This document shows, in pieces, positions 3,231-29,323 of a stretch of 39,292 nt of DNA (position 1 is its first letter; the number at the start of each line of letters is the position of its first letter). This DNA comes from Bacteroidales bacterium. GTDB lineage: Bacteria > Bacteroidota > Bacteroidia > Bacteroidales > NBLH01. Under the pieces are notes generated by a model that was not told the DNA's origin, made no database searches, and was given only the letters and a program-made list of their open reading frames with translations. The DNA lies in NCBI GenBank assembly GCA_016937695.1, contig JAFGWC010000040.1:1-39292 (forward strand), in the 5' to 3' direction. Position numbers and translations under genes: made by a program.

Positions 3231-3455
3231 ATGGTAAATAAAATGCATAACACAATTAGAGTAGAAAGAGCTAAGAAAAAAATAACACAAGCTGAATTAG
3301 CAGAAAAGTTAAGCGTTTCGAGGCAAACTATTCACTCAATAGAAACAGGTAAATTTGTTCCTTCAACAGTTTTGGCTTTAAGAATAGCAAGATATTTTGA
3401 TGTTGATTTTAATGAGATTTTTCAGTTAGAAGAAGACGAAACTGAAAATATTTAA
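3231..3455 (+). CDS. Small XRE/Cro-family transcriptional regulator, copy 1
   Basis: This short DNA-binding protein is essentially one helix-turn-helix domain: residues about 16-60 contain KKKITQAELAEKL (helix 2) and SVSRQTIHSIETG (recognition helix). It matches the short COG1476-type Cro/CI regulators of about 65-75 residues. A second ATG at 3243 gives MHNTIRVER, which aligns exactly with the start of the next gene, so translation may begin there rather than at 3231. The acidic tail (EEDETENI) is slightly longer than in copy 2. The downstream paralogue begins 31 bases later and the two are probably co-transcribed. Target genes are unknown; the palindrome at 3055-3072 is a candidate self-operator. 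Confidence 0.9.
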   Translation: MVNKMHNTIRVERAKKKITQAELAEKLSVSRQTIHSIETGKFVPSTVLALRIARYFDVDFNEIFQLEEDETENI

Positions 3456-3486: not shown

Positions 3487-3687
3487 ATGCGAAATACAAT
3501 TAGAGTTGAAAGAGCAAGGCATAAAATTACACAAGCCGAATTAGCAAAAAAAGTTGATGTTTCTCGTCAAACTATTCATGCAATTGAAACGGGAAAATTT
3601 GTGCCATCTACAATTTTAGCTCTTAAAATTGCAAATTTCTTTAAAGTTAGATTAGAAGAAATTTTTGAGCTTGATGGTAATGAATAG
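3487..3687 (+). CDS. Small XRE/Cro-family transcriptional regulator, copy 2
   Basis: A 66-residue single-domain HTH protein, close to copy 1 over its full length: both share NTIRVERA, KITQAELA, VSRQTIH.IETGKFVPST and a C-terminal EIF.L. The recognition helix differs at few positions (VDVSRQTIHAIE against LSVSRQTIHSIE), so both may read related operators. The arrangement looks like tandem gene duplication. Forms with identical dimer surfaces could also make heterodimers; that is inference. It ends in TAG, showing that TAG is used as a normal stop in this genome. The decayed channel gene follows 39 bases later. Confidence 0.9.
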   Translation: MRNTIRVERARHKITQAELAKKVDVSRQTIHAIETGKFVPSTILALKIANFFKVRLEEIFELDGNE

Positions 3688-3726
3688 CTTTTCTTTTATT
3701 TTACTTTTTAATAAAATTAATATTAA

Positions 3727-4289
3727 ATGGTTGATAATAAGTCATTTAAAAACCGTTTATACGAAATTATATTTGAGGCTGATACCAAAGCAGGCAAAGC
3801 TTTTGATATAATTTTGCTAATTTTAATATCTGTAAGCATTATTACAGTATCGCTTGAAAGTGTTAAAATCATTAGTTTTAAATACGGCAATTTTTTATAT
3901 GCTTTTGAATGGATTATAACTTTTTTCTTTACATTAGAATACATTCTAAGAGTATTTATTGTAAAAAACCCCAAATCTTACATTTTCAGTTTTTTCGGAA
4001 TAATTGATTTTCTTTCCATTTTACTTTCATACATAAGCATTTTTATAGTTGGCGCTCATGGTTTAGTTGTTATTAGAGCTTTACGCTTATTGCGTGTTTT
4101 TAGGGTTTTTAAACTTTCGAGATATGTATCTGAAAGCATGGAATTATTGCTGTGCCTACAGGAATTGTTAGTGCTGAATTTGCTATTGCTTCTAAAAAAA
4201 TCACAACTCAAGTTTGCCCGCACTGTTTAAAAGAAGGCCACGACCAAGATTCTATTTTTTGCAAATATTGCGGTAAAGAATTGAATTAA
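3727..4289 (+). pseudogene. Voltage-gated (Kv-type) ion channel with the pore deleted
   Basis: The first 138 codons encode the S1-S4 voltage-sensor half of a bacterial 6-TM cation channel. S4 is clear at about residues 115-133 (VIRALRLLRVFRVFKLSRY, arginines every third position). After SESM the ORF leaves the family sequence and stops at 4230. From 4140, one frame over, the family resumes: GIIAVPTGIVSAEFAIASKK (end of S6), then a C-terminal zinc ribbon with CPHC and CKYC, ending at the TAA at 4287-4289. S5, the pore helix, the TVGYG-type filter and most of S6 are absent. Intact relatives are about 270-285 residues, so roughly 250-300 bases are missing. The junction sequence ATGGAATT can be read as belonging to either side, as expected for a deletion between short direct repeats. 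It cannot conduct as it stands. Confidence 0.88.
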
Positions 4290-4312
4290 AAAAAACTAAA
4301 TGGTTAATTTTC

Positions 4313-4714
4313 CTATATAAAAAGATTTTCGTCTAAATCTTCAAAATTATTATTGTTTTTTGAATCGGGGTTTGATTGTTTTTTTGATAAAAGAAGATAT
4401 GTTAAAAGGCCTGTTGCTACTGTTCCTATTGCAATTAATGCTGTTTTTTTATTTTTTTCGGATATTTTTATATTCGAAAATTTATTTTTATACTTTAAAA
4501 TTAATGGAAGCATATTTAAAATGCTGTGTTGTAAATTAAATTCGGATAAAATTTCGTTATAAATATTTTGAACGTTTGACTTTTTTGTAATTTTTTTTAC
4601 TTTTTTAGTAATTTTCTGCTCTTTTTTATATGCTTTTTTCTTAAGCTGTTCCTTTTTTAATCTTAAATCGTCTAAAGTTTTTATTGGCCTAACTATTTTA
4701 ATTTTTTCTATCAT
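4313..4714 (-). CDS. Small lysine-rich one-TM protein
   Basis: This 133-residue protein has a strongly basic N-terminal half (KKEQLKKKAYKKEQKITKK, about residues 20-45) that could form a helix or coiled coil. One hydrophobic segment follows at about 91-110 (TALIAIGTVATGLLTYLLLS), then an acidic, Asn-rich tail. I do not recognise a named family. The gene begins 2 bases after the stop of the holin-like gene at 4717, so the two are surely one operon. With the YtxH-like gene upstream they form a trio of small envelope proteins; such trios are common in Bacteroidota but their role is not established. It is probably a membrane-associated stress or envelope protein. Confidence 0.7.
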   Translation of the reverse strand: MIEKIKIVRPIKTLDDLRLKKEQLKKKAYKKEQKITKKVKKITKKSNVQNIYNEILSEFNLQHSILNMLPLILKYKNKFSNIKISEKNKKTALIAIGTVATGLLTYLLLSKKQSNPDSKNNNNFEDLDENLFI

Positions 4715-4716
4715 AA

Positions 4717-5082
4717 TTATTTTTCGCTTTTTAAAATCATTGACGATAAAATTTTCACTAAAGGCTTAGATATCAGTACTTTTCTAAAAATCACGAAAAG
4801 TATTGTAATAAAAATATAAATGATTCCAACAACTAAAAATCCGAGATGAATTGCGCCAAAAATAATACCCAAATAATAAGCTAATGCAAAAGATAAAAAC
4901 AAAAAAACTGAAGGTACAATTAAAATAAAAATAAAAAAAGTATAAAATTGTGTAAAAATTATCACCATTTTTTCAGTAATGTCAAGTCTGGCAATATCAT
5001 ATTTTATGTCAAGATATTCTTTTATTTCGGTAAAAAGTATAGTTATTTCTTCAGAAAAGCTTAAGTTTTTATCTGATTTCAT
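4717..5082 (-). CDS. Phage-holin-family (superfamily III) inner-membrane protein
   Basis: A 121-residue protein with a charged N-terminal helix (residues 1-42) followed by two long TM segments at about 44-73 (FTQFYTFFIFILIVPSVFLF) and 77-105, and a short cytoplasmic tail. This matches the chromosomal 'phage holin family' (PF07332-like) proteins of Bacteroidota. They are not phage-encoded despite the name, and they usually sit beside YtxH-domain genes as here. The usual length is 110-130 residues. The function is not well defined; envelope maintenance is inferred from company. It overlaps nothing and runs directly into the 4313-4714 gene. Confidence 0.75.
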   Translation of the reverse strand: MKSDKNLSFSEEITILFTEIKEYLDIKYDIARLDITEKMVIIFTQFYTFFIFILIVPSVFLFLSFALAYYLGIIFGAIHLGFLVVGIIYIFITILFVIFRKVLISKPLVKILSSMILKSEK

Positions 5083-5244: not shown

Positions 5245-5481
5245 TTAAGCTTTTGATGTTGATTTTTCTTCGTTTTCAACGTTTGCTTCTTTCATAAAAT
5301 CATCGTAAGCTTGTTGAGCTTTTTTGTATGCTTCTTTAGCTTTGTCGCTTAATCCGTCGATAGAGCCTTTTAATTTTTCTCTTGTAACTTTACCTTTTTC
5401 CGGCGCAAGTAAAATTCCTATTCCGGCTCCGGCTAATGCTCCGGCAATAAAAGCAGCAAGTAATTTTCCTCCACTATCCAT
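5245..5481 (-). CDS. YtxH-domain membrane protein
   Basis: A 78-residue protein when started at the ATG at 5481; a longer frame reaches 5508, but the extra nine codons overlap the putative promoter. The N-terminal glycine/alanine-rich TM helix (LLAAFIAGALAGAGIGILLAP, residues about 6-26) followed by EKGKVTREKLK and an amphipathic helix is the YtxH signature (PF12732). The C-terminal tail is acidic. In Gram-positives, family members are linked to general stress; in Bacteroidota the role is unknown. It heads the trio YtxH, holin-like, one-TM protein, although the 162-base gap with an inverted repeat may give the other two their own control. Confidence 0.8.
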   Translation of the reverse strand: MDSGGKLLAAFIAGALAGAGIGILLAPEKGKVTREKLKGSIDGLSDKAKEAYKKAQQAYDDFMKEANVENEEKSTSKA

Positions 5482-5505
5482 AATTTTATTTTTTTTATAT
5501 TTTAA

Positions 5506-5513
5506 CAAAGTTA
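5506..5513 (-). promoter_or_regulatory. -7 promoter element for the YtxH-like gene
   Basis: On the minus strand this reads TAACTTTG, an exact TAnnTTTG. It is 25 bases before the ATG at 5481 and supports that start. I could not find a TTG at the ideal 19-base spacing, so only the -7 box is claimed. Confidence 0.5.
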
Positions 5514-9662: not shown

Positions 9663-12629
9663 ATGAACTATAATTTTTATGAAAAAATTTATAAAAATCT
9701 AATCATAATATTATTATTTTTAATAATACAAAATGATAATATAATCTCTCAAGAATATGCTTTTTTTCATTTAGATTCTGAAAACGGACTTCCAAGCTCA
9801 TCAATTTTTCACGCAATACAAGATTCAAAAGGTTACATTTGGTTTGCAACAGATAACGGAGTTAGTAAATATAACGGTTTTAATTTCACAAATTACGATT
9901 TAAACGATGGATTACCAAAAAACACCGTTTTAGAAATATTTGAAGATTATAAAGGCCGAATTTGGTTTACAACAATGGGCGCAAAAATTGCATATTACTT
10001 AAACGGAAAAATTTATCCGTTTAAGTATAACGATAAAATATCTAAACTTCAAGAGAATAAGCAAATTCCTTTAAAATCATCATTTTACGTTGATAGTTTA
10101 GATAATGTTTATTTTGGAAAACAATATACCGGAATTACCAAAATAACAAAATTCGGCGACATATCAGTATATGACACTACAGCTGTTAAATGCGATTACA
10201 ATATTGCTTATAAAATGAACAAAAATAAGTATATTATCAGTCAAATTTCGGAAAAAAGAAACACTGAGATACATTTTTCAACAGGAAAAAAAATAGAACT
10301 TGATAAAAACATAGCATTACATCCAATTCATTCTTTTATAGTTCCTATGTCTAAAACCAAATTGTTTTATTCAAACGATTTTTTTTTATACGAAATCGAA
10401 AATTTTAAAGAAAAAAAACATATCGACTTTAAGTCTCATATTCAATGGCTTAGTAAAGATAACGGAAATAATATTTGGGTTTGCGGAAGAAAAAATGGAG
10501 CAACATGTTACAAAAATGGAAACTTATCAGATTCGAGCAAAACAGTATATTTAGAAAATTACAGTATTTCATCTGTTTTACAAGATAGCGAAGGCTCGTA
10601 TTGGTTTACAACTTCACATGATGGAGTTTTTTATTTACCTTCAAAAAATGTTTATTCATACACAACCGAAAATGGACTTTATAACAATAATGTAAAATGC
10701 ATTGCTGCTCAAAATGATAATATTTGGATTGGATACAATTCTAATTACATTTCGGTAATGAAAAACGGCAATTTTAAACACTCAAAACTATCAGAATTAA
10801 ACAATAGCGAACTAAAAGTAATTATTTACGATAGCATTAATAATCAAATAGTTGCAGGAACAACATATTACGGATATATTATTAAAAACAATAAAATTAA
10901 AAAAATTGAAAACAATCATTTTTCTTTAAGAAAAAATCTGCCTAAATATTTTCTAATTTGTGATATTGCACAAAAAAATAAAGACGAATACTGGTTTGGC
11001 TGTTCCTATGGATTTCAAAATTACAAAAATGGAATAATAACCTATAAATCAGACTATTACAATAAATTTTATTTAAGAGTAAATTCTATCTATATAAATG
11101 ATGACAATTCAATTTGGCTTGGAACAATTGATGGTTTATGGAAATTTGAAAACAAAAAACTAATTGATTACGGAAAATTTGACGATAGATTTAAAATAAG
11201 AATACTTGACATAATTAAAAATGGAACCAAACTAATTTTAGCAACAAAAGGAGGCGGAATTTTAATTTACGAAAACGACAGCATTATTCAAATAACAAAA
11301 AAAAACGGATTAAGCTCAAATACTATAAATTCTCTTGTGTTTACAAGCAAAGACACACTTTGGGCAGGCTCTATTAATGGATTAAACAACATTATTTTAT
11401 CAGATAAAAACAAAAACTTTAAAATAAACACTTTTTTAAGTTCGCACAAACTAATTACAAGCGAAATAAGACAAATAATTCCTTATAAAAACAGATTAAT
11501 TTTAGCAACAAACAAAGGTTTAGTTTATTTCAACTACAAAAACCTTAACAATAAAACAATTGAAGCTCCATTATACATCAAAAATGTTATTATAAATAAT
11601 ATAGAAACCCAAATTAAATCGAACTACAAATTAGAACACAACCAAAACAACATAAAAATAGTTTTTGAAACAATTTCATTTAAAAATGCGGCCGATGTTG
11701 AATATAGAATAAAACTAAACGGACTTGACACAAATTGGATTTACACCGAAAACAGCGACATAAGATTTAATCAATTGCAACCAGGAGATTATAAACTTTA
11801 TATTGAAGCAATTAGTAAAAACAACTCCATTAAAACAAAAGCTGCCATTATTAATTTTATAATTAAAAAATCTATTTGGCAAACCACTTTTATGAAATTA
11901 GTATACATTTTCCTTATTATAAGTTTTTTCTTTGCCATTTATAAATACAGAGTTAATGAAATAAAAAAGAAGTTGATGATTGAAGAAAGTTTAAATTGGC
12001 ACAAAAAACAAGCTTTATTTAATCAAATGAATCCACATTTTTTATTTAACTCATTAAACTCAATAAATAACTATATACTACATAACGAAAAAAAATCGGC
12101 AAGCAAATATTTAAACAAGTTTGCCGGATTAATAAGAAGAATTCTGGAGAACTCTCAAAATGAATACGTTACTCTTGCAAAAGAAATAGAAACCAATAAG
12201 TTGTATTTAGAAATCGAAACGGTAAGATTAAAAGATAAATTTGTTTATAATTTCGAAATTGATGAAAACATCAATACATATGAATACAAAATACCAAGTA
12301 TGCTTATTCAACCATTCATTGAAAATTCTATTTGGCATGGAATACAACCTTTAGAAAAACAAGGATATATAACTATAAAAGCCATAAAAAATAAAGACAC
12401 AATTGTAATATCTATTTCCGATAATGGAATTGGAAGAAATAATTCATCACAAATTAAAAAAAATACAAATTCCACACACAAATCACTTGGTGCAAACATA
12501 GCTTTAAAAAGAATTGAACTATTAGAAAAAAGCTACAAAAAAGGACTAAGTATTAAATATGAAGATTTATTCGAAAACAATACTCCTTCTGGAACTGCAG
12601 TACACATAACTATTCCGATAATAAAATAG
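9663..12629 (+). CDS. Periplasmic beta-propeller sensor with LytS-type histidine kinase
   Basis: A 988-residue membrane sensor. An uncleaved or cleaved signal segment (about 10-29) leads to a long periplasmic region with many 'two-component regulator propeller' blades (repeats like D..G.IWFAT.NGV, residues about 35-640), then a Y_Y_Y domain (about 660-735), one TM (about 745-763), and a LytS-type HisK domain. The phosphoacceptor is His792 in NQMNPHFLFNSLNS. The HATPase N box (QPFIENSIWHG) begins near 880 and the G1 motif is SDNGIG. There is no receiver or DNA-binding domain in the same chain, unlike the hybrid sensors of gut Bacteroides. The LytTR regulator at 12725 is the obvious partner. 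The ligand is unknown; related sensors detect glycans or other periplasmic cues. Confidence 0.9.
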   Translation: MNYNFYEKIYKNLIIILLFLIIQNDNIISQEYAFFHLDSENGLPSSSIFHAIQDSKGYIWFATDNGVSKYNGFNFTNYDLNDGLPKNTVLEIFEDYKGRIWFTTMGAKIAYYLNGKIYPFKYNDKISKLQENKQIPLKSSFYVDSLDNVYFGKQYTGITKITKFGDISVYDTTAVKCDYNIAYKMNKNKYIISQISEKRNTEIHFSTGKKIELDKNIALHPIHSFIVPMSKTKLFYSNDFFLYEIENFKEKKHIDFKSHIQWLSKDNGNNIWVCGRKNGATCYKNGNLSDSSKTVYLENYSISSVLQDSEGSYWFTTSHDGVFYLPSKNVYSYTTENGLYNNNVKCIAAQNDNIWIGYNSNYISVMKNGNFKHSKLSELNNSELKVIIYDSINNQIVAGTTYYGYIIKNNKIKKIENNHFSLRKNLPKYFLICDIAQKNKDEYWFGCSYGFQNYKNGIITYKSDYYNKFYLRVNSIYINDDNSIWLGTIDGLWKFENKKLIDYGKFDDRFKIRILDIIKNGTKLILATKGGGILIYENDSIIQITKKNGLSSNTINSLVFTSKDTLWAGSINGLNNIILSDKNKNFKINTFLSSHKLITSEIRQIIPYKNRLILATNKGLVYFNYKNLNNKTIEAPLYIKNVIINNIETQIKSNYKLEHNQNNIKIVFETISFKNAADVEYRIKLNGLDTNWIYTENSDIRFNQLQPGDYKLYIEAISKNNSIKTKAAIINFIIKKSIWQTTFMKLVYIFLIISFFFAIYKYRVNEIKKKLMIEESLNWHKKQALFNQMNPHFLFNSLNSINNYILHNEKKSASKYLNKFAGLIRRILENSQNEYVTLAKEIETNKLYLEIETVRLKDKFVYNFEIDENINTYEYKIPSMLIQPFIENSIWHGIQPLEKQGYITIKAIKNKDTIVISISDNGIGRNNSSQIKKNTNSTHKSLGANIALKRIELLEKSYKKGLSIKYEDLFENNTPSGTAVHITIPIIK

Positions 12630-12724
12630 ATTTTATTAAAAAAACATTAAAAAAATATTAAAAAAAATAACGTTTTGTTGTAATTATTTATATTTTTATA
12701 TTCTTCAATATACAAATCTAAATT

Positions 12725-13483
12725 TTGGGCTTAAAAACAATAATTATTGACGATGAATCTGATGCTATTAGTTCATTAAAACTAATTATTAATGAGTATT
12801 TGCCTGAATTAGAGCTAATTGCAACTTTCAACAATCCTATAATCGCAAAAAAAGAAATTCCAGAATTAAAACCCGATTTAGTTTTTTTAGACATTAACAT
12901 GCCAGCTATGAACGGTTTTGAGCTTTTGGATAATATTAAAGAACATAATTTCAAAATTATTTTCATAACAGCCTTCGACGAATTTGCAATAAAAGCATTT
13001 AAATATAGTGCTATTGACTATATTTTAAAACCTGTAGATATTGACCAGTTAATTTCAACTATTTCAAAAATAAAAAAAGAAGAACCAAGTTTAAATAATT
13101 TCAATTTAAATTACAATAAATTTTTAAATTTCTTAAATCATCACAAAACAAAAAAGTTAATGGTTTCTACTTTAGATGATGTCCATTATCTTGATACTGA
13201 CGACATTATCTACATACATGCAGAAGGCTCTTATGCTAAAATTATTCGTAACAATAACAGTCCTATTTTAGTTTCAAAAAATCTTAAGGATTTTGAATCT
13301 CAGTTACATTACGAACACTTTTTTAGAAGCCATAATTCATACTTAATAAATCTAAACTTCGTTAAAAAATTCTTAAAATCTGACGGCGGAAGCATTGAAA
13401 TGTCAAACGGAGATATTACTCCAATATCAAAAAGAAAAAGAAATGAATTTAACGAAATAATGATTAAGATTTTCAACTTATAA
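12725..13483 (+). CDS. LytTR-family response regulator
   Basis: A 252-residue transcription factor. The receiver domain (residues 1-120) has the acidic pair IIDDES, the phosphosite Asp56 in LVFLDINMP, the conserved Thr in FITAFDEFA and the Lys in DYILKPVD. A LytTR DNA-binding domain follows (about 150-250, with YIHAEGSYAKI and RSHNSYLINLNFVKKF). It begins with TTG (12725): no ATG precedes the receiver, and GLKTIIIDDES after TTG is a normal receiver start. It lies 95 bases after the LytS-type propeller kinase, and together they form a standard LytS/LytTR pair. A weak -7 candidate (TATATTTT) lies in the gap, so the regulator may also be transcribed alone. Confidence 0.92.
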   Translation: MGLKTIIIDDESDAISSLKLIINEYLPELELIATFNNPIIAKKEIPELKPDLVFLDINMPAMNGFELLDNIKEHNFKIIFITAFDEFAIKAFKYSAIDYILKPVDIDQLISTISKIKKEEPSLNNFNLNYNKFLNFLNHHKTKKLMVSTLDDVHYLDTDDIIYIHAEGSYAKIIRNNNSPILVSKNLKDFESQLHYEHFFRSHNSYLINLNFVKKFLKSDGGSIEMSNGDITPISKRKRNEFNEIMIKIFNL

Positions 13484-13607
13484 TTTTACCATTTACAAAC
13501 TCAAACCACACACATACAAATCCATAACCACCATACACAAATTAACAAAAAGAAATAGCTTTTTTTTTTATTACTTTATTTCGCTAAACAAAAAAAGCTT
13601 AATTAAA

Positions 13608-14039
13608 ATGTATTCAACCAAACATTCTCTATTATCTAATAACAAAAACATTTTAATTGTTGAAGATGACCCAATTAATTATATGCTTTTAAAGGAAATA
13701 TTAACATTAAACAATTATAATGTTACAATTGCACAAAATGGCAAAGAAGCTGTTAAAATAATAAAATCAGATAAAAATAAGTTCTTTTTAATATTAATGG
13801 ATATTAAAATGCCAATAATGAATGGTTTTGAAGCTTGCTCAATTATAAAAAAAATAAAAAACATTCCAATAATAGCTCAAACTGCTGATATACTTACAAA
13901 TACAACCGAAAAATTTGAAAAATATAACTTTGATAAAGTTATTTATAAACCATTTTCAATAGACCATATTATTAAAATTGTTGAATTCTACTTTTTAGAA
14001 AACAAAAAATTTAAAAACTTACACCTTCAATTAAACTAA
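13608..14039 (+). CDS. Stand-alone receiver (CheY-like) protein
   Basis: A 143-residue protein that is a receiver domain only: acidic pair VEDDPIN, phosphosite Asp65 in LILMDIKMP, Thr in IAQTAD, Lys in VIYKPF. The pattern (INYMLLKEIL, IIAQTA) resembles receivers fused to hybrid kinases more than CheY proper, and it is close to the receiver end of the hybrid kinase at 14177. The first 14 residues are a short extension. With no output domain it must signal by binding a partner or by passing phosphate on. Possible donors are the hybrid kinase and the propeller kinase at 18179, but no HPt protein is in the window. Confidence 0.9.
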   Translation: MYSTKHSLLSNNKNILIVEDDPINYMLLKEILTLNNYNVTIAQNGKEAVKIIKSDKNKFFLILMDIKMPIMNGFEACSIIKKIKNIPIIAQTADILTNTTEKFEKYNFDKVIYKPFSIDHIIKIVEFYFLENKKFKNLHLQLN

Positions 14040-14152
14040 TCTGCCTTAAAATATATTTAAATTCGCTTTGTTAAAATTTAATAAATATATTTAAAAAGCA
14101 TATTTTACCTTAAAAAAAGTCATAAAACATATTAAAGTGCGCAAAATATTTA

Positions 14153-14160
14153 TACTTTTG
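14153..14160 (+). promoter_or_regulatory. -7 promoter element for the hybrid kinase
   Basis: TACTTTTG is an exact TAnnTTTG, 16 bases before the ATG at 14177. It suggests the hybrid kinase is transcribed separately from the receiver gene. The -33 position lacks TTG. Confidence 0.45.
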
Positions 14161-14176
14161 CCCAAATTATTAAAAA

Positions 14177-16933
14177 ATGGGTATGTGTATATTAAATGAT
14201 GATACCACCAAAAAAAACACTAAAAAAACTTTAAACAACCTTTACAAAAACATAAACCAAGCTATTTTAATAGCAAACAAAACAGAGATAGTTTATTTAA
14301 ATAAAAAATTCACTAAAATTTCAGGTTATTCTTTAAATGAAATTAAAAAACTTCATTTTGAATTATTAACTAATGAAAAAGATTTAAATAAACTTAAAGT
14401 AAATTTAAAAATTTTGAGAGTAAAGCCTCAAAATTCTTTAAAGCAAGAAATATCAATTATTGCAGCTAATAAAAATGAAATTAATTTAAAATTAAAGTTA
14501 TTTTCAATTATCTTAGATAATAACAGATATTATGTGTTTGCACAAAAAAAAATAAATTCAAACTCTAAAAAATCTTTTACTGATAAAGAATTATCAACTT
14601 TTAAACAAATTGAGAACAAATACATTCGAAACCAAAAAAGATTAAGAAAAATTCTTGATCTGGTTCCTCATATTATTTTTTTAAAAGATGAAGAAGGTAA
14701 AATTTTATTAGCAAATAAAGCATGTGAAAAATTTTACAACAAAAGCGTTAAAGAATTAGTTTACAGCAATATATCCAATTTTCATAATAATAAGCAAGAG
14801 CTTAATAGAATGATTGACGAAGATATTGAAGTAATAAAAACCAACCAAAGAATAGAGTTAATTGATACGGTATCTACAGATTATAAAAATCAAAAACATT
14901 TTTTTAATACAACAAAAATTCCATTTACCGATCCTGTTACAAAAAAAACAAATTCGTTAGGAATTTCAATAGAAATAACCCAACAAAAAATAGAAAAACA
15001 AAAGCTAAACGAAGCTAAAGAAAAATACAGATTACTTGTTGAACGAGGAAGCGATGGAATAATTATTTTGGAAAACAAAAAAATTGTTTTTGCAAATAAT
15101 CAAGCAGCAAAGCTGTTTGAACAACCAATTGCAAATTTCACAAACAAAAAAATCACCGAATTCATAAAAAAGGAAGAGTTTCAAAAAATTTCTGAACAAT
15201 ATACACAAAATGCAATTTCTAAAAACATAGATAATAGCTATGAAATTAAAATTGACTCTTTATCTAATGAAAAAAAATATGTAGAAGCAAAAATCAATTC
15301 AATTAGCTATGCAACAAAAAAATCGAGTTTAATTTTTTTAAGAGATATTACAAAAAGAAAAAAAGCTGAGCAACTTAGAGAAAGAGACAAAAACATGCTC
15401 GAACAAGCTCAAAAAATATCAAAATTAGGAAGTTGGGAATGGAATATTGAGAGCAAAAAAATATTTTGTTCGGATGAAATATATAATATAGTTGAAATTG
15501 ATAAATCAACAAAAAAAGATCAAGCAAATTGGTTTATGGAATTTATTCCTGAAAGCGAAAAATCAAAAATATTTAAATCATTTTTAAATGCCTACAGAAG
15601 CGGAGGTAAATGCGAAATGGAATTTCCAATTATAACGGCTAAAAAAAACAGAAAAATTATACATGCTCAAAGTCAGGTTTTTAAAACAAAAAATGGAAAA
15701 CAGTCAGTAATAGGAACATGGCTTGATATAACAGAAAGAATAAAATTAGAGCAAATATTAAAATCAGCAAAAGCAAAAGCCGAAGAATCCGATAAACTAA
15801 AATCAGCATTTTTGGCAAACATGTCGCATGAAATTAGAACACCAATGAATGCAATAATGGGATTTGCTAACTTGCTAAAAATGTTTGACTTAAATGAAAA
15901 TACTAAAAGAGAATATATAGATCATATTGTAAGTTCAGGCGACAGTTTATTAAATCTCATTGATGATATTATTGATATATCAAAAATGGAATCAAATCAA
16001 ATTACAATGGATATTACAAATGTTAATTTAAACAAACTGCTGAATCAAATTTATTCAAGATACGAAGAGCTAATACTATTAAAACATAATAGCGAAATAA
16101 ATCTAGTTTTGGAAAAAGCTATTGAAAATGAGAACTTTATAATTAAAACAGACTCGCACAGATTACAGCAAATAATTTCAAATTTGATTAACAATGCTCT
16201 AAAATTTACAAAAAATGGCGAAATAAAATTCGGATATTTAATTAATGGAGAGAACTTATTATTTTTTGTAAAAGATACCGGAATTGGAATTGATAAAAAA
16301 AGTCAAGCAATTATTTTCAAACGATTTGGAAAGTTAGAAGACCCAGAAAGACTTAATAAAAGCGGAACAGGATTAGGATTAAGCATTTCAAAACATTTGG
16401 TTGAAATTTTAAATGGTAAAATTTGGGTAGAATCTGAACAAGGCAAAGGAGCTAAATTTTACTTTTCAATTCCTTTAAAGAAAGTAAACTCTGATTTAGA
16501 GATTGTTATAGATGAAACAACTAGCGTTTACCAAAATAAAAAACCAAATTTAAAAGGTAAAATAATTTTAATTGCTGAAGATGAAATATTAAACTTTAAG
16601 CTTTTAGAAAATTTAGTTTCTAAAACAGGCGCTAAAGTTTTATGGGCAAAAAACGGATTACAAGCTATAGAGATTTTTTCGAACAGAAATGATATTGATT
16701 TAATATTTATGGATATAAAAATGCCGAAAGTTGATGGTTATCAAGCAACTAGAGAAATAAAAAAAATAAATCCCGAAATACCTATTATAGCTCAAACAGC
16801 TTTTGCATTTGCTAATGAAAAACAAGCAATTTTAGATTCTGGATGCAATAGATATATAAAAAAGCCTATAAAACACGAAGAAATTTATCAAGTATTAGAA
16901 AAATACCTGTGTAACAAAAAAAAAACTATTTAA
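14177..16933 (+). CDS. Four-PAS hybrid histidine kinase with receiver
   Basis: A 918-residue soluble sensor with no TM segment. Four PAS-type modules can be seen at about 20-120 (NINQAILIANKTEIVYLNKKF), 155-275 (LVPHIIFLKDEEGKILLANKA), 285-405 (GSDGIIILENKKIVFANNQA) and 410-530 (GSWEWNIESKKIF, a PAS_3-like module). HisKA follows with His551 in NMSHEIRTPMN, then HATPase_c (NLINNALKF, DTGIGID, GTGLGLSI), and a receiver (about 795-915) with Asp846 in FMDIKMP and a Lys in IKKPI. All catalytic residues are present. The output is unknown: with a terminal receiver it should pass phosphate to an HPt or compete with the small receiver at 13608. The signal may be a small molecule or redox state. Confidence 0.92.
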   Translation: MGMCILNDDTTKKNTKKTLNNLYKNINQAILIANKTEIVYLNKKFTKISGYSLNEIKKLHFELLTNEKDLNKLKVNLKILRVKPQNSLKQEISIIAANKNEINLKLKLFSIILDNNRYYVFAQKKINSNSKKSFTDKELSTFKQIENKYIRNQKRLRKILDLVPHIIFLKDEEGKILLANKACEKFYNKSVKELVYSNISNFHNNKQELNRMIDEDIEVIKTNQRIELIDTVSTDYKNQKHFFNTTKIPFTDPVTKKTNSLGISIEITQQKIEKQKLNEAKEKYRLLVERGSDGIIILENKKIVFANNQAAKLFEQPIANFTNKKITEFIKKEEFQKISEQYTQNAISKNIDNSYEIKIDSLSNEKKYVEAKINSISYATKKSSLIFLRDITKRKKAEQLRERDKNMLEQAQKISKLGSWEWNIESKKIFCSDEIYNIVEIDKSTKKDQANWFMEFIPESEKSKIFKSFLNAYRSGGKCEMEFPIITAKKNRKIIHAQSQVFKTKNGKQSVIGTWLDITERIKLEQILKSAKAKAEESDKLKSAFLANMSHEIRTPMNAIMGFANLLKMFDLNENTKREYIDHIVSSGDSLLNLIDDIIDISKMESNQITMDITNVNLNKLLNQIYSRYEELILLKHNSEINLVLEKAIENENFIIKTDSHRLQQIISNLINNALKFTKNGEIKFGYLINGENLLFFVKDTGIGIDKKSQAIIFKRFGKLEDPERLNKSGTGLGLSISKHLVEILNGKIWVESEQGKGAKFYFSIPLKKVNSDLEIVIDETTSVYQNKKPNLKGKIILIAEDEILNFKLLENLVSKTGAKVLWAKNGLQAIEIFSNRNDIDLIFMDIKMPKVDGYQATREIKKINPEIPIIAQTAFAFANEKQAILDSGCNRYIKKPIKHEEIYQVLEKYLCNKKKTI

Positions 16934-17015
16934 AATAAATACTGATATATTTTTATTGCCTATTTCTTTCAAAAAAAACACAAAACAAGTTTTACATCAA
17001 ACTCTTTAAATTTAG

Positions 17016-17028
17016 GCACAATTTGTGC
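17016..17028. promoter_or_regulatory. 13-base palindrome upstream of the LuxR-type gene promoter
   Basis: GCACAATTTGTGC is a perfect inverted repeat around one central T. It ends 32 bases before the -33 box of the downstream promoter, where activator sites are often found. No regulator can be assigned. Confidence 0.4.
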
Positions 17029-17060
17029 ACTTTGTTTTAATTAAAATAAACTCTTAAAGT

Positions 17061-17090
17061 TTGAATATTAAATACTTAATATTATTTTTG
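17061..17090 (+). promoter_or_regulatory. Bacteroidota-type promoter for the PAS/LuxR gene
   Basis: TTG (17061-17063), exactly 19 bases, then TATTTTTG (17083-17090), a full match to the -33/-7 consensus. The ATG at 17116 is 25 bases downstream. Confidence 0.75.
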
Positions 17091-17115
17091 TTAACAAAAT
17101 GTAAGGTATTATAAA

Positions 17116-18108
17116 ATGAATGAAAACAATACTAAACACCAAGAAATAGAAAAAGAACTTGAAGAATATAAAAAGCTGTTGTGGCAATTATCTGACGAAT
17201 ATAAAGTAAACGTAACAGCAGCCGAAAAAAAACTTGAAGAAGAAATAAAAAAAAGAGAAATTCTTGAAAATAAAAAAAGCACAGAAACGGTTGATTCAGA
17301 TTTCTCATTTATTTCGTTAATTGGTTTACCGGCTTGCATAATTGATAATAAAGGTAATATCAGTAAATTTAACAATAAATTTAAATTTTTAACAGAGCTT
17401 TTATTTGTTGATATTGAGGAAGTTACAACAATAAATAAAATTATTGTTTATGATAAAACACAAAACTTAGAAAAAAAAATAAATGACTATTTTACTAATG
17501 AAAATAGACTTTTTCAAAGTATATTTAAAATAGAAAATTCATTTCAAAATAAATTAAATTTAATTTTTAGAATATATAATTACGATAAAGATAACCATCT
17601 AGCTTTATTTATAGAATTAAGCAAATCAGAAATAGAAAGCATAGAATCAGCTAATAAAACATCTGTAAAAGATAAAATTGAAACAGAAAAAGAAAAAAAC
17701 ACAGAAGAAAAAAATGAAAATACATCTGCATTTTCTGCTCAAATACAAAGTTTTAGCGAAAAATATGAAATTCTTTCTGTTTTATTAAAAAAACTAAAAA
17801 AAGAAAAATCTGAAATAAAAGAATTTATTAACGACACTTTTAATTTAGAAAAAGTAAGAAATAATATAATTAAAGAAATAAAATCTGACAATCCCGAATT
17901 TTTAAATAAATTAAAATTAAACTATCCCGAACTTACAACAAACGAAATTCAGCATTGTTTATTAATTAAAGTAGGATTAAGCTATAAAGAAATTTCAGCA
18001 ATTATGAATATTTCTGTAAATGGAGTAAAAATTGCCAGAAATAGATTAAGAAAAAAATTAAATCTTAGCGAAGGAGTAAAAACACAAGATTTTATCGAAA
18101 ACATATGA
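17116..18108 (+). CDS. PAS-like, coiled-coil, LuxR-type HTH regulator
   Basis: A 330-residue cytoplasmic protein. Residues 1-55 are a highly charged coiled coil, residues about 60-175 look like a diverged PAS sensor (LPACIIDNKGNISKFNNKF), a second charged coiled coil spans about 180-260, and the C-terminal 60 residues are a LuxR/GerE-type HTH (TTNEIQHCLLIKVGLSYKEISAIMNISVNGVKIARNRLRKKL). That HTH form, with a long linker after KEIS, is common in Bacteroidota regulators that lack a receiver. It has a strong promoter and a nearby palindrome, and lies 70 bases before the second propeller kinase. Lacking a phosphosite, it probably senses through PAS or protein contacts. DNA target unknown. Confidence 0.85.
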   Translation: MNENNTKHQEIEKELEEYKKLLWQLSDEYKVNVTAAEKKLEEEIKKREILENKKSTETVDSDFSFISLIGLPACIIDNKGNISKFNNKFKFLTELLFVDIEEVTTINKIIVYDKTQNLEKKINDYFTNENRLFQSIFKIENSFQNKLNLIFRIYNYDKDNHLALFIELSKSEIESIESANKTSVKDKIETEKEKNTEEKNENTSAFSAQIQSFSEKYEILSVLLKKLKKEKSEIKEFINDTFNLEKVRNNIIKEIKSDNPEFLNKLKLNYPELTTNEIQHCLLIKVGLSYKEISAIMNISVNGVKIARNRLRKKLNLSEGVKTQDFIENI

Positions 18109-18178
18109 AATTTTCAGTCCTTTAATTTATTTTTTTTCATAAATTGTGTTAATTTAGATTACTATCCAATAAACTAAT

Positions 18179-21100
18179 ATGACAAAGTTAAAATTCATAC
18201 AAATATTAGTGTTTATTTTATACTTTGGTATATTAAATGCTCAAACAGATAAATTTAATCAAGCAATTATAAGTCAAAAAAAAACAATGTCTAAAAGTTG
18301 GTCTGTCGAAGACGGATTAATTTCAAACGCAGTTCTTAAAATCACTAAAACTCCAGAATCATATCTTTTTATGGCAACATATAATGGTATAGCTATATTC
18401 GATGGAAAAAAATTCTCAAGTTACACATCTAAAAATACCGAAATTTTAAATGCTGATGTTATTTATGATTTTTGTTATAGAAAAGACAGCTCAATTTGGA
18501 TAGCTACAGGAAATGGAATTTTTAAATTTAAAAACAAAAAATTTTATCGTGTAAAAGAATTAAAATCACTTAATGATATTAATGTTCAAAAAATTGAGTG
18601 CGACAATAACAATAATTTATGGATAGGAACAACTTCAAAAGGATTATATAAATTTTCGAACGAAAAACTCACTAAAATAGAAGGCATTGAATCTTTAGAT
18701 AAAAACATTATATCTCTTATTTACAAAGATTTAGAAGGCATAGTTTGGATTGGAACCGAAAGAGGAGATTTATATAAATACAAAAACAATAAATTTGAAA
18801 CCGTTTTTATACCAAAAAAAATTAACGGAATTTTTGCTGCACTCCAACGCAAAAAAAAAGGAGAACATTATTTTGGCACAAGAGATGGAATATACATTCT
18901 TGAAAATAATAATCTGAAATTAATAAATAACGATATTAACTTTATTAATGATATTCAAGAAGATAAAAAAGGCTTAATTTGGTTTGCTACAAACTCCGGA
19001 TTATTTTTTTATAATCCATTAGAGAAACACAAATTCAATAAAATAAAATCGCTTAGTAATCAAATAATTAGAACAATATATTTTGATAATGAAGATATTA
19101 TTTGGATTGGCTCTTACCGAAAAGGACTGTTGCAAATAAGAGAAACGGCATTTGAACAAATTTCGTTAAAAGATAAAAACATCGACGATACTCCTTCATA
19201 TGCAACTTTAATGAATGATAGCAATATTTGGATAAGTACTGATGAAGGCAATATTTTTGTTTATAATGATGATAATTTTACAAAACTTAATCTTAAAACA
19301 AATTTAAAAGGCAGCCGAATTAAAAATATATATTCTGATAGTAAAAATAACATTTGGATTTGCTCATACAAAGGGCTTTTAAAATATAACAAAAATTCAG
19401 AAGTTTGTGCAAATATTAAAAACGGATTTCCGGACAATACCATAAGAGAAATAATTGAAGATAAAGAAGGAAACTATTACGTAAGCACAAGACAATCTGG
19501 AATTTACAAAATAGATGAAAACTTTAATGTTTTAAAAAAATTTAATACCGATAATGGATTAGCTTCAAACTTTATCATGTCTCTTGTTTTTGACAAAAAC
19601 CAAAGGCTTTTTGTTTCCTCAAAAAATGGAGTAAATATTATTGAAAACGACTCAATAACAACACATTACAACGAAGAAAAAGGATTAGCAGAAAATATGA
19701 TTTTTAATATTTATATCGATAAACAAGATATAATTTGGGTTGCTACAATTAATGGTTTATCTAGAATTGAAAATAATAAAATTGTTAATTTTAATAATTC
19801 AAACGGACTTAGCGAAAGTAAAATTTTTGACATTGTTGAAGACAATTTCGGGAATTTTTGGATGCCTATTGAAAAAGGTCTTATAAAAGTTGATAAGAAA
19901 TCTTTAAACGATTTTGCAAATAAAAAAATCACAAAAATATATTCTACAATTTATGCCGAAACTGATGGAATTAATAACCCACAATATGTTGGCGCAAGCA
20001 AAATGTACAAAACTAAAAGCGGCAAAATTATTTTTTGTACCATATCTGCAATAAACATTTTAGATCCAAGCGTAATAAACTCATTCAAAAGCAATTATAA
20101 TTTATTTATTGAACAAATATCAACCGAAAACGATACTTTTCCAATAACTAAAAACTTTTTAAATATTCCGGCGTATTCAAAATACATAAAAATAAATTTT
20201 TCGTATATTGACTATATTTATCCAGACAAAGTACATTTCAAATATAAATTAGAACCTTTTGATAAAGAATGGCAAGACCCAGAAGAAGATAGATTTGCAA
20301 AATACACAAACCTTCATCCGGGTAATTATAATTTTATCGTTCAAGCTGAAATTTCAAATCTAAACGGAAAAAAAATTACGTCATCAAAAAAATTTGAAAT
20401 TTCACCTGCTTTTTACCAAACTACATGGTTTAAATTGATTTCAGCATTTACAATTTTACTAACAATATACTTAATCTACACTATCAGAATAAGAAGTATT
20501 AAAATAAATCAGCAACTTCTTGAAAAAGAAATTAAAGAGCGAACAAAAGAAATAAGACGACAAAAAGGAGCAATTGAAAAACAAAACAAAGAACTGGAAT
20601 TTCAAAAATCAGAAATAGCTCAAAAAAATGATGAAATACTTCTTCAAAGTCATGAAATAGAACAATCTTTTTTGCAATTAAAATCCCTAAGCGATTTAGG
20701 AAAAGAAATAACAAGCTATTTAAGTAAAGAAAAAATTATAAAAACAGTTTATAAAAACATTAATTATTTAATGGATTCTACAATTTTTGGAATCGGAATT
20801 TTTGATAAAGAAAAAAACACAATCGTATTTAATTCAGCAATTTATAAAAATAAAGAAATAAAACCTTTTGAAATTTCTGTTGATAACGATAATTGCTTAA
20901 TTTGCCTTAGTTTTAATGAAGATAAAGAAATTTTCTCAAATAATATTAAATTAGATTATCCTAATTATATTGAAACATTTCCAAATATTACAAGCTTTCA
21001 AACTGTTGATTCATCAATTATAATTCCTCTTAAAATTAAAAACGAAAAAATTGGAATTATTACAGCTCAAAGTTTCAGAAAAAATTCATATTCTGAATAT

Positions 21101-21934
21101 CATGTAGATTTAATAAAAAATTTAGCTGTATACATTGGAATTGCAATTGAAAATGCAAAAGTTTATGCTCAAATAAGCGAACAAAAAGATGAATTACAGC
21201 AAGTTAACACTGCAAAAGACAAACTCTTTTCATTAATTGGTCATGATTTACGCGGACCTGTTGGAACAATAAAAACTTTTCTTGATATAATTCTGGAAAA
21301 TCCTGACATGTCAAATCAGGAACAAACTTTGCAAATTTTAAAAACTATGCAGCAAAGTCTTGAATCTGCATATACTTTACTTGACAATTTATTGCTTTGG
21401 GCAAGAAGCCAAAGAGGTCAAATTGAATTTGAACCCCAAAATTTTATTATTGAAGAAGCTATTAACGAAAGTATTAATATTGCTGCAGAAAGTGCTAAAA
21501 GTAAAAACATAAAATTTATCAAAAAAATTAGCGATAATGAAAATGTTTTTGCTGATAAAAACATGATTACAACAGTTATAAGAAACTTAATTTCAAATGC
21601 GATAAAATTCACCTCATCTGATGGAAATATTGTTGTAAAAACAAAAAAAACACACAAAATAATCAATTCTGTTAATAAAGAACTTGTTGAAATAAGTATT
21701 ATTGATGACGGTATTGGAATATCCAAACAACTCATTGATAAAATATTAAATTTAAACGAAACGTTTTCTACTTTAGGCACTGAAAAAGAAAAAGGCTCAG
21801 GATTAGGCATCAACATTTGCCTCGATTTTTTGAAAAGGCATAACCAAAAACTCATAATTGAAAGTAAAGAAACAAATTCAAACATAGAAAAAGGAAGCAT
21901 TTTTAAATTTTACTTACCAACTGAAAATAATTAA
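18179..21934 (+). CDS. Periplasmic beta-propeller sensor kinase with GAF and HisKA domains
   Basis: A 1251-residue membrane sensor with a signal peptide (about 1-21, ending LNA before QTD). Periplasmic propeller blades (about 35-640; repeats such as IWIGT..KGL) are followed by a Y_Y_Y domain (about 665-735), a TM (about 753-772), and a long coiled coil rich in EIKE and QKNDEI (about 775-840). A GAF-like domain follows (about 845-995), then HisKA with His1022 in SLIGHDLRGPVG, and HATPase_c (N box RNLISNAIKF near 1132, IDDGIGIS, GSGLGINIC). It differs from the first propeller kinase in using a conventional HisKA rather than a LytS core, and in having an intracellular GAF. It has no receiver and no adjacent response regulator with a DNA-binding domain, so it looks like an orphan kinase. 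Confidence 0.9.
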   Translation: MTKLKFIQILVFILYFGILNAQTDKFNQAIISQKKTMSKSWSVEDGLISNAVLKITKTPESYLFMATYNGIAIFDGKKFSSYTSKNTEILNADVIYDFCYRKDSSIWIATGNGIFKFKNKKFYRVKELKSLNDINVQKIECDNNNNLWIGTTSKGLYKFSNEKLTKIEGIESLDKNIISLIYKDLEGIVWIGTERGDLYKYKNNKFETVFIPKKINGIFAALQRKKKGEHYFGTRDGIYILENNNLKLINNDINFINDIQEDKKGLIWFATNSGLFFYNPLEKHKFNKIKSLSNQIIRTIYFDNEDIIWIGSYRKGLLQIRETAFEQISLKDKNIDDTPSYATLMNDSNIWISTDEGNIFVYNDDNFTKLNLKTNLKGSRIKNIYSDSKNNIWICSYKGLLKYNKNSEVCANIKNGFPDNTIREIIEDKEGNYYVSTRQSGIYKIDENFNVLKKFNTDNGLASNFIMSLVFDKNQRLFVSSKNGVNIIENDSITTHYNEEKGLAENMIFNIYIDKQDIIWVATINGLSRIENNKIVNFNNSNGLSESKIFDIVEDNFGNFWMPIEKGLIKVDKKSLNDFANKKITKIYSTIYAETDGINNPQYVGASKMYKTKSGKIIFCTISAINILDPSVINSFKSNYNLFIEQISTENDTFPITKNFLNIPAYSKYIKINFSYIDYIYPDKVHFKYKLEPFDKEWQDPEEDRFAKYTNLHPGNYNFIVQAEISNLNGKKITSSKKFEISPAFYQTTWFKLISAFTILLTIYLIYTIRIRSIKINQQLLEKEIKERTKEIRRQKGAIEKQNKELEFQKSEIAQKNDEILLQSHEIEQSFLQLKSLSDLGKEITSYLSKEKIIKTVYKNINYLMDSTIFGIGIFDKEKNTIVFNSAIYKNKEIKPFEISVDNDNCLICLSFNEDKEIFSNNIKLDYPNYIETFPNITSFQTVDSSIIIPLKIKNEKIGIITAQSFRKNSYSEYHVDLIKNLAVYIGIAIENAKVYAQISEQKDELQQVNTAKDKLFSLIGHDLRGPVGTIKTFLDIILENPDMSNQEQTLQILKTMQQSLESAYTLLDNLLLWARSQRGQIEFEPQNFIIEEAINESINIAAESAKSKNIKFIKKISDNENVFADKNMITTVIRNLISNAIKFTSSDGNIVVKTKKTHKIINSVNKELVEISIIDDGIGISKQLIDKILNLNETFSTLGTEKEKGSGLGINICLDFLKRHNQKLIIESKETNSNIEKGSIFKFYLPTENN

Positions 21935-26818: not shown

Positions 26819-29323
26819 TTGGCAGATAATAAATTATATAATAAAATATTGAAGCTTGAAGCTGAGAATAAACTAATTAAGTCTAAACTTAAAGACTATA
26901 AAAAGAAATTAAAATCTGAAAACTTCAAGGAAAAGCTTGAGTATGAATATAATCAAAAAAAACTTATTGTTAATATTTCAAAAATACTTAATAAAAATAA
27001 AAATTTCAGAAAAGCTCTTGATAAAACTGTTAAGCTAATTGGGGAACATACAAAAGTTAGCAGAGTTTATATAATTGAAGATTTTGAATATGGAAAATAT
27101 TGTCGTTCCAGCCATGAATGGTGTAATACAGGAATTAGTGCTGAAAAAGACAATTTACAAAAAATAGATTATTCTGAAATTCCTTCTTTTAAGCCACTTA
27201 TTATAGAAAAAGGAGTTTTAAATATATCAGATATTGATGAATTACCTGATGATTTAAAAGATATATTAAAACCACAGAATGTTAAAGCAACTTTGCTTAT
27301 TCCATTATTTGTCAACAACTTATATTTTGGAAACATTGGTTTTGATGAGTGTATTACTTATAAAAATTGGCAAACACAAGAAATAAACTTTTTAAAAATA
27401 ATTGTAAATATAATTTCAAGTGCTTTTGAAAAAGAAATCTTTGTTTCTAAACTTAAAGATAGTAATAACAGATTTAAAGCCTTTTCCAGAGCTACTTTTG
27501 AAGCAATTATAATTTGCTTTGACAATGAAATTATTGATTTAAACTATAAAGCTCGCCAACTTACAAAATATACAAAAGAGGAATTGCTAAAATTAAAAAT
27601 TACTGATTTATTTAAGCCAAACGAAAATCAAGAAATCTATAATAGTTTAAACTCTGATATTGAAATAATTACAGAAAAAAATCTTATTAGAAAAGATAAA
27701 AAAATTATTCCTGTTGAAATAGAAAACAAAAACTTTCAATACAACAAAAGAAAAGTTAAAGTTATTGCAATTAGAGATATTAGCGAAAGAAAAAAAGCTG
27801 CCATTTTAATTAAAGAAAATCAAGAAAAATACAGAACAATTGTTGAAACAGCAAACGATGCAATAATTATTCTCGAATATGAATCTGCAAATATTGCTGA
27901 TGTAAACAAAAAAGCAGAAAAACTATTTAAAGCAAAAAAAGAAGATTTAATCGGATTAAACCGAAATAAAATGCATCCGAAAGATGAAATAAACAATAAT
28001 TCGAATTGGTTTAATGACCTTGATTATTGGTTAAAAAACACTGTTAAATCTTCAATTATTGATAAAAAAGGAAAAATAATTCCTGTTGAAATAAGCAGCA
28101 GCGAAATTAATATTGACAAGCAAAAATTTATTATTGGTTTTTTCAGAGATATTACCATACAAAATGATTATGAAAAAATTCTTTTAAAAGCAAAAAATAA
28201 AGCTGAAGAAAGTGAAAAACTAAAATCTGCTTTTCTGTCAAACATTTCTCACGAAATAAGAACTCCGATGAACGGAATAATTGGTTTTGCTAATTTACTT
28301 AAAACTCCGGATATTGAGGAAGAGAAACGAGTTAGATATCTTGAAATTATTGAAAACAGTAGTAATCAATTGCTAAATTTAATAAGCGATATTATTGATT
28401 TATCTAAATTTGAAGCCGGAATTATTAATCTTAACAAAGAAAAAGTAAATATTAACCAATTAATTCTTGAATTATATCAGTTTTTTAAAGAAGGTATTTT
28501 ATCCCGTGCCGAAAAACAAATATATTTTTATTACGAAACACAATTTATTGATGATGATATTTTTGTTTACACAGATTATATGCGTTTAAAACAAATTCTG
28601 ATTAATTTAATTGGAAATGCTTTAAAATTTACATACAAAGGATTTGTTAAATTTGGATATACGATTAAAAAAAATCCTAAAACCAGTTTTTTAGAATTTT
28701 TTGTTGAAGATACAGGAATTGGTATCCAAAAAGACAAACAAAAAATAATATTTCAGCGTTTTAGACAAGCCGAAAGTTCAACATCAAAAAATTTTGGCGG
28801 AACCGGTTTAGGCTTAAATATTTCAAGAATTTTAGTTAAAAAATTAGGTGGAAATATTAAAGTTGAAGCTGAAGAAAGTAAAGGCTCTATATTTACATTT
28901 ACAATTCCGTTTATTCAAAAACCGGAAAATATTTTTATAGAAAAGAATAAATGCAATTTTAAAAACAGAACTATTTTAATTATTGAAAATGAAGCTGAAA
29001 ATGCTGCCGAAATTGGTGAAATATTAAAACCAACTAAAATTGAAACTCTATTTGCTTTTTCAATTGAAGATGCTTTGATAATTATTAAAGCTATTGCAAA
29101 AATTGATATTGTTTTAATTAATATTGATATGGAAGGAATTAAAGATAATTGCACTTCGCTTAAAATTAAAAAAATCAGAAAATCAATTCCTATTATTTCA
29201 CAAAATAATTTTGATCTTAATCCAAAATCAAAATCGGAAAACTCTAAATTTCATGATGCGCAAATAAGTAAACAAGATAATAATCAGCAACTTATATCAA
29301 CAATAAATAAATTTCTTCGATAA
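26819..29323 (+). CDS. GAF/PAS/PAS histidine kinase with degenerate receiver
   Basis: An 834-residue soluble kinase. It starts at TTG (26819, MADNKLYNK); no ATG is available earlier. Residues 1-50 are a coiled coil, 52-205 a GAF domain (ending KEIFVSKLKD), and two PAS modules lie at about 215-325 and 335-455. HisKA has His478 in NISHEIRTPMNG, followed by HATPase_c (NLIGNALKF, DTGIGIQ, GTGLGLNI). The C-terminal 115 residues have the receiver fold pattern but have lost its chemistry: the acidic pair reads IIENEAEN, the phosphosite is Asn768 (VLINIDMEG), and the conserved Lys region reads QISKQD. The kinase core looks active; the pseudo-receiver may be a binding or inhibitory module. It is convergent with the PAP2 gene, nine bases apart. 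Confidence 0.9.
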   Translation: MADNKLYNKILKLEAENKLIKSKLKDYKKKLKSENFKEKLEYEYNQKKLIVNISKILNKNKNFRKALDKTVKLIGEHTKVSRVYIIEDFEYGKYCRSSHEWCNTGISAEKDNLQKIDYSEIPSFKPLIIEKGVLNISDIDELPDDLKDILKPQNVKATLLIPLFVNNLYFGNIGFDECITYKNWQTQEINFLKIIVNIISSAFEKEIFVSKLKDSNNRFKAFSRATFEAIIICFDNEIIDLNYKARQLTKYTKEELLKLKITDLFKPNENQEIYNSLNSDIEIITEKNLIRKDKKIIPVEIENKNFQYNKRKVKVIAIRDISERKKAAILIKENQEKYRTIVETANDAIIILEYESANIADVNKKAEKLFKAKKEDLIGLNRNKMHPKDEINNNSNWFNDLDYWLKNTVKSSIIDKKGKIIPVEISSSEINIDKQKFIIGFFRDITIQNDYEKILLKAKNKAEESEKLKSAFLSNISHEIRTPMNGIIGFANLLKTPDIEEEKRVRYLEIIENSSNQLLNLISDIIDLSKFEAGIINLNKEKVNINQLILELYQFFKEGILSRAEKQIYFYYETQFIDDDIFVYTDYMRLKQILINLIGNALKFTYKGFVKFGYTIKKNPKTSFLEFFVEDTGIGIQKDKQKIIFQRFRQAESSTSKNFGGTGLGLNISRILVKKLGGNIKVEAEESKGSIFTFTIPFIQKPENIFIEKNKCNFKNRTILIIENEAENAAEIGEILKPTKIETLFAFSIEDALIIIKAIAKIDIVLINIDMEGIKDNCTSLKIKKIRKSIPIISQNNFDLNPKSKSENSKFHDAQISKQDNNQQLISTINKFLR

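Follow-up and report, generated by a model that had tools for sequence, protein, structure and literature searches.

A zinc-ribbon voltage-gated channel gene of a Bacteroidales bacterium that has probably become a pseudogene through one internal deletion

The window, which is the whole stretch of 39,292 nucleotides analyzed here, carries at positions 3727 to 4289 the voltage-sensing half of a channel gene without the pore. This raises the question whether the gene is broken, encodes a free voltage sensor, is expressed through a frameshift or results from an erroneous assembly. The window is part of contig 67 of a draft genome of 3.95 Mb (159 contigs, 99.6% complete). Elsewhere in the window (9663–21934 and 26819–29323), large putative signalling genes resemble beta-propeller (Y_Y_Y type) sensors, histidine kinases, and response regulators. 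The locus comprises the following features.

3231–3455 (+): small XRE/Cro-type HTH regulator, first of a pair located 5' of the channel (HTH_3, E = 9.9e-14; same place in L064, L065, and L066, loci of three same-genus genomes)
3487–3687 (+): second XRE/Cro-type HTH regulator (HTH_3, E = 2.6e-14; copies in genomes G003 to G006)
3727–4137 (+): intact S1–S4 voltage-sensor half of a Kv-type channel, to SES (Ion_trans; alignment with 59 relatives)
4137–4140 (+): deletion junction, with about 247 nt lost; codon AGC is now followed by AT, the presumed remainder of a Tyr codon, and GGA (alignment with relatives)
4140–4289 (+): out-of-frame remnant comprising the S6 end GIIAVPTG, the CPHC/CKYC zinc ribbon, and a stop (translation, Pfam, alignment)
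4138–4230 (+): frameshifted hydrophobic tail of the 167-residue ORF (MELLLCLQELLVLNLLLLLKKSQLKFARTV, then a stop; ORF reading, predicted helix)
4194–4200 (+): A7 run, A AAA AAA in the sensor frame, at which a hypothetical -1 slip would lead into the zinc-ribbon frame (sequence)
4313–4714 (-): convergent gene for a basic protein of no assigned family (neighbor kept in three same-genus genomes; no Pfam or NCBIfam match at E 0.001)
4717–5082 (-): gene for a hydrophobic protein (neighbor kept in three same-genus genomes; no Pfam or NCBIfam match at E 0.001)
5245–5508 (-): gene for a YtxH-like protein (PF12732, E = 1e-16; neighbor kept in three same-genus genomes)

The 167-residue ORF (3727–4230, + strand) is open through S1–S4 to the residues SESM, the Met codon of which is the ATG at 4138–4140, and continues as the frameshifted tail. 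It matched Ion_trans (PF00520) in Pfam with an E value of 9.9e-17 and no family in NCBIfam. The Pfam match and the alignments identified an S1–S4 voltage sensor retaining the S4 arginines, S4 reading RALRLLRVFR. The next frame reads GIIAVPTGIVSAEFAIASKKITTQVCPHCLKEGHDQDSIFCKYCGKELN from position 4140 to a stop codon ending at 4289, positions 4140–4286 encoding the S6 end, a spacer, and the CPHC and CKYC motifs. All 10 zinc-ribbon-type Pfam matches of this out-of-frame tail were under the curated cut-offs. S5, the pore loop, and the selectivity filter were missing from the gene at 3727–4289, and S5, a TxGYG pore loop, and S6 were not found in a single frame. The translations, the Pfam matches, and the alignment with 59 relatives thus bear out the first-pass annotation, which had described a channel gene without pore, in frame to SESM and resuming one frame over with GIIAVPTG and CPHC/CKYC.

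The closest relative of the sensor that was found belongs to the same genus (67% identity, E = 3.2e-53), and the out-of-frame tail aligned residue for residue with the same relatives as the sensor. Together, these two observations indicate that the locus is a channel remnant rather than a chance resemblance. At an E value of 1e-10, 34 of 99 genomes contained a match to the sensor half, and at 1e-15 so did 126 of the 393 genomes searched in the order; both counts include the window's own genome. Frames were read from 60 loci (L003–L031, L034–L063, and L074), of which L063, a 72-residue fragment at a contig end, was left out before counting, leaving 59 full-length relatives. The C-terminal CxxC...CxxC motif was present in all 59 and a filter of the TxGYG/TxGFG type in 58. 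The exception, L029 (genome G042), has a single open frame that keeps the sensor and the zinc ribbon and reads ITTFHIENIYP where the others read TTVGYGDI; judged from its sequence, it is possibly a non-conducting channel homologue. Compared with solved sequences, an intact same-genus relative matched mammalian Kv4 best (5.1e-30) and 1orq with an E value of 3.2e-20; an intact relative also matched 6uwm, 2a0l, and mammalian Kv1. In NCBIfam, the match of an intact relative to K_channel_Meth was far under the cut-off. The window sensor alone matched the sensors of sodium channels best (6nt3, 1.8e-15). The potassium label therefore derives from the intact relatives, the window sensor itself being closest to sodium-channel sensors.

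The alignment with intact orthologues, proposed in the first-pass annotation as the means of locating the deletion ends, placed a loss of about 247 nt between SES and the S6 end. All 59 relatives carry in this interval, in frame, 83 to 86 residues that are missing from the window and correspond to the S4–S5 linker, S5, the pore loop, the filter, and most of S6. The number of missing residues was 83 in 45 comparisons, 84 in eight, 85 in five, and 86 in one. Since two bases of the last missing codon remain, these numbers imply a deletion of 247 nt relative to 45 of the 59 relatives and of 250, 253, or 256 nt relative to the other 14. The implied length is 1 modulo 3 in every comparison, so that the frame is always shifted. 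The proposal that the pore was lost through one internal deletion with a frameshift is thereby sustained.

The mechanism put forward at the same time, slippage or recombination between short direct repeats, was not supported. The bases shared at the aligned breakpoints numbered 0 in 22 relatives, 1 in 25, 2 in nine, 3 in two, and 4 in one, i.e. 0 to 2 nt in 56 of 59. The junction ATGGAATT had been read as part of both sides. This octamer was absent from the region between -30 and +60 of the left end in all 59 relatives, ATGGAA and TGGAAT each occurred there in three of 59, and no relative has Met as the residue following SES. In view of the breakpoint and octamer counts, the simplest reading is that the junction belongs to the right-hand side (Tyr-Gly-Ile); a direct-repeat deletion was rejected as unsupported. 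A search for repeats at 3600–4400, which covers the surviving bases only, the lost ones being gone, listed none spanning the junction. A repeat private to the window's lineage would still be conceivable at the deletion ends since, at the protein level, no relative closer than 67% identity was found.

In three same-genus genomes (L064, L065, and L066), the two HTH genes and the channel gene are followed by the convergent basic-protein gene, the hydrophobic-protein gene, and the YtxH-like gene, as in the window. This common gene order indicates that the window copy is the orthologue of these channel genes, in broken form. The copies of the second HTH gene located beside the channel in G003, G004, and G005 were 80–86% identical to that of the window. 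Thus, intact orthologues occupy the same chromosomal position, and the lesion has destroyed an essential part of the gene, the pore being gone and the frame shifted. The pore half of a same-genus relative was used as a query against the draft genome, and a second copy of the pore was not found. The only matches were the remnant itself (4122–4286) and a sequence of 24% identity (E = 3.0e-6) from another channel, in which a TVGFG filter is combined with a long cytosolic portion. Relocation of the pore within the genome was rejected, as the missing segment was not found on any other contig.

The same observations bear on the possibility that the deletion arose by an error of assembly or represents only a minority or strain-specific allele, the channel being intact in the organism or in most of its population. 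In favor of this possibility, the draft consists of 159 contigs, and none of the 59 aligned full-length relatives lacks the pore region. However, a false join by overlap normally requires long identical words, and the relatives share 0 to 4 nt at the breakpoints. Furthermore, the missing segment was found on none of the other contigs, where a misplaced piece could have landed, and the window contains 25 open frames of at least 150 residues (six frames, including that of the broken gene and probably some antisense frames). We therefore regard an assembly error or a minor allele as unlikely.

A single protein of about 187 residues could be produced from both remnants if translation slipped by -1 at the A7 run and thereby joined the sensor to the zinc ribbon. 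In the phase of the sensor, the run is divided as A AAA AAA, and a shift back by one base leads into ITTQVCPHC...CKYC. However, in-frame slippery heptamers occur at a frequency of 0.70 per 30 codons in the long ORFs of the window (0.14 for A7), indicating that one A7 run at this place is unremarkable, and the KK that it encodes is ordinary channel sequence. The 70 nt downstream fold worse than shuffled sequences (z = +1.77). A programmed frameshift was rejected for want of such a helping structure, and a joined product is extremely improbable.

Could the 167-residue product instead be made and used as a free voltage sensor, for example in sensing or as a pathway for protons or a leak current, while the frameshifted S6 supplies a fifth membrane helix? 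Residues E61, E71, D94, R120, R123, and R126 are invariant in a 26-row alignment including the window, and the tail, with an open frame of 30 codons, is strongly hydrophobic (mean Kyte-Doolittle value of 2.12 over 19 residues). Among 30-codon tails simulated at the codon usage of the window, 12% were open, 0.35% were as hydrophobic, and 0.25% were both; the simulation and the slippery-site counts were based on the 25 long open frames of the window, which include that of the broken gene and probably some antisense frames. In the relatives, the same alternative frame was open for at least 19 residues in seven of 58 and had a mean above 1.0 in one of 58 (58 of the 60 loci, L046 and L063 being left out). 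AlphaFold2 predicted a bundle of helices, the last of which is long (130–166), from an input in which no other alignment row covered the tail (mean pLDDT of 83, pTM of 0.65). The best Foldseek matches of this model were Kv channels, with E values from 3.6e-4 upward, and Nav-type channels were among those ranked next. In a study of Shaker (PMC5092046), the channel deprived of its pore is reported to be a voltage-gated cation channel, so that a leak through a free sensor would be physically possible.

Several observations weigh against such a function. The hydropathy comparison was chosen after the tail had been seen, and an open tail by itself has a probability of 0.12 in the simulation. The proline of S3 has been replaced. 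The S4 signature of Hv1 is RxWRxxR, whereas the window has R-x-L-R-x-x-R. The form is also not kept in orthologues, as it would be for an Hv1-like protein, and no other member of the family with such an architecture was found in the 393 genomes of the order. A family naturally lacking the pore, which according to the first-pass annotation would speak against a deletion, was thus looked for and not encountered. The case for a working free voltage sensor is weak and post hoc, and we consider that use of the 167-residue protein is very improbable. A newborn sensor-only protein, composed of the four-helix sensor and a leucine-rich fifth helix derived from the frameshift, to which a -1 slip on A7 would occasionally add the zinc ribbon, is just as hard to credit.

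Both remnants are well preserved. Considering columns conserved in at least 95% of the relatives, the window differs at one of 22 in the sensor and at none of 11 in the tail; at a threshold of 90%, it differs at one of 25 and one of 13, respectively. The S3 proline, present in all 59 relatives, is replaced by Leu. In a leave-one-out comparison, 16 of the 59 relatives differed at one or more sensor columns at the 95% threshold and 25 of 59 at 90%. Because 16 of the relatives also differ in this manner, the Pro to Leu replacement is weak evidence for relaxed constraint. The small number of altered conserved columns would fit a recent loss; it does not prove relaxed selection. Relatives of the same species that might date the deletion were absent from the 30 loci compared, from which records of the window's own genome were possibly left out; the best of these loci was 63% identical over the sensor, and a 60-residue fragment was 65% identical.

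The channel was not found in three of the six other genomes of the genus (completeness of 92, 82, and 97%). One genome without a found channel, G006, keeps the HTH pair (L088, 2139–2599), its second HTH gene being 83% identical to that of the window. The persistence of the pair in this genome suggests that the regulators may have a role of their own. In G006, the neighboring basic-protein gene was not found either, no channel remnant was detected behind the HTH pair (best E value of 1.6), and the next gene appears to be a deacetylase-like ORF. Across the 393 genomes of the order there were 127 matches besides the window, 123 of them with open frames of at least 252 residues; complete readings were made for 30 of the 123, and length is the sole evidence for the other 93. 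Of the four shorter matches, those in G360, G175, and G362 are frameshifted but still contain the pore, and the one in G312 is cut by a contig end. G360, with a 178-residue frame of 61% identity, was considered as a naturally pore-less member and rejected, the frameshift being in S5 and the pore in another frame. G242, which had been flagged for a TGA codon, was rejected as a broken copy since it reads through intact. The frameshifted copies (L070, L072, and L075, respectively) come from draft genomes, and some of the frameshifts may be draft errors; L072 additionally reads TVRYGD where others have TVGYGD. Considering the same-genus genomes without the channel and the frameshifted copies elsewhere in the order, the channel looks dispensable in this group.

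Together, these results make it very probable that the locus is a young pseudogene of a dispensable Kv channel, in which one internal deletion of about 247 nt left the rest of the gene out of frame. The starting point would have been a chromosomal gene for a six-transmembrane voltage-gated potassium channel with a C-terminal zinc ribbon. A single deletion, probably generated by end joining or a replication error with little or no homology, would have removed the segment from the S4–S5 linker to most of S6 and, by the same event, put the remaining S6 end and the zinc ribbon out of frame. Any product would be a non-conducting free sensor under no selection and bound to decay. The loss was probably recent, as the frames of the two remnants remain open and their sequences well conserved. 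By far the simplest and most likely explanation is a recently broken gene rather than a novel type of protein, in keeping with the original judgment that decay was likelier than a free sensor.

The matches listed in searches of the literature on pore-less bacterial sensors, zinc-ribbon Kv channels of Bacteroidetes, and sensor pseudogenes did not include a description of this case. The window gene suggests that this group can do without its zinc-ribbon Kv channels. It offers one clean loss of a pore by deletion, with little sign of homology at the ends, and is otherwise ordinary, as a likely pseudogene. If the sensor were still made, the locus would offer a natural way of testing whether a lone Kv sensor can work.

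Hv1, the voltage-sensing phosphatases, and the engineered Shaker sensor (PMC5092046) have in common with the window ORF a sensor without a pore in one frame. In contrast to these isolated voltage-sensor proteins, the form present in the window has no orthologue that was found, does not carry the S4 signature of Hv1, and ends in a tail that is a frameshifted S6; a newborn sensor, if real, would be the natural counterpart of the engineered Shaker sensor, which conducts cations on its own. With the prokaryotic six-transmembrane Kv channels (Ion_trans, PF00520), the window gene shares the S1–S4 sensor, the S6 end, and the zinc ribbon of its relatives, but it differs from them by the frameshift and by the absence of the S4–S5 linker, S5, the pore loop, the filter, and most of S6. 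Bacterial pseudogenes formed by internal deletion also combine a single deletion, a frameshift, recognizable flanks, and a conserved position; the window copy differs from these in nothing essential, being young, with both remnants open.
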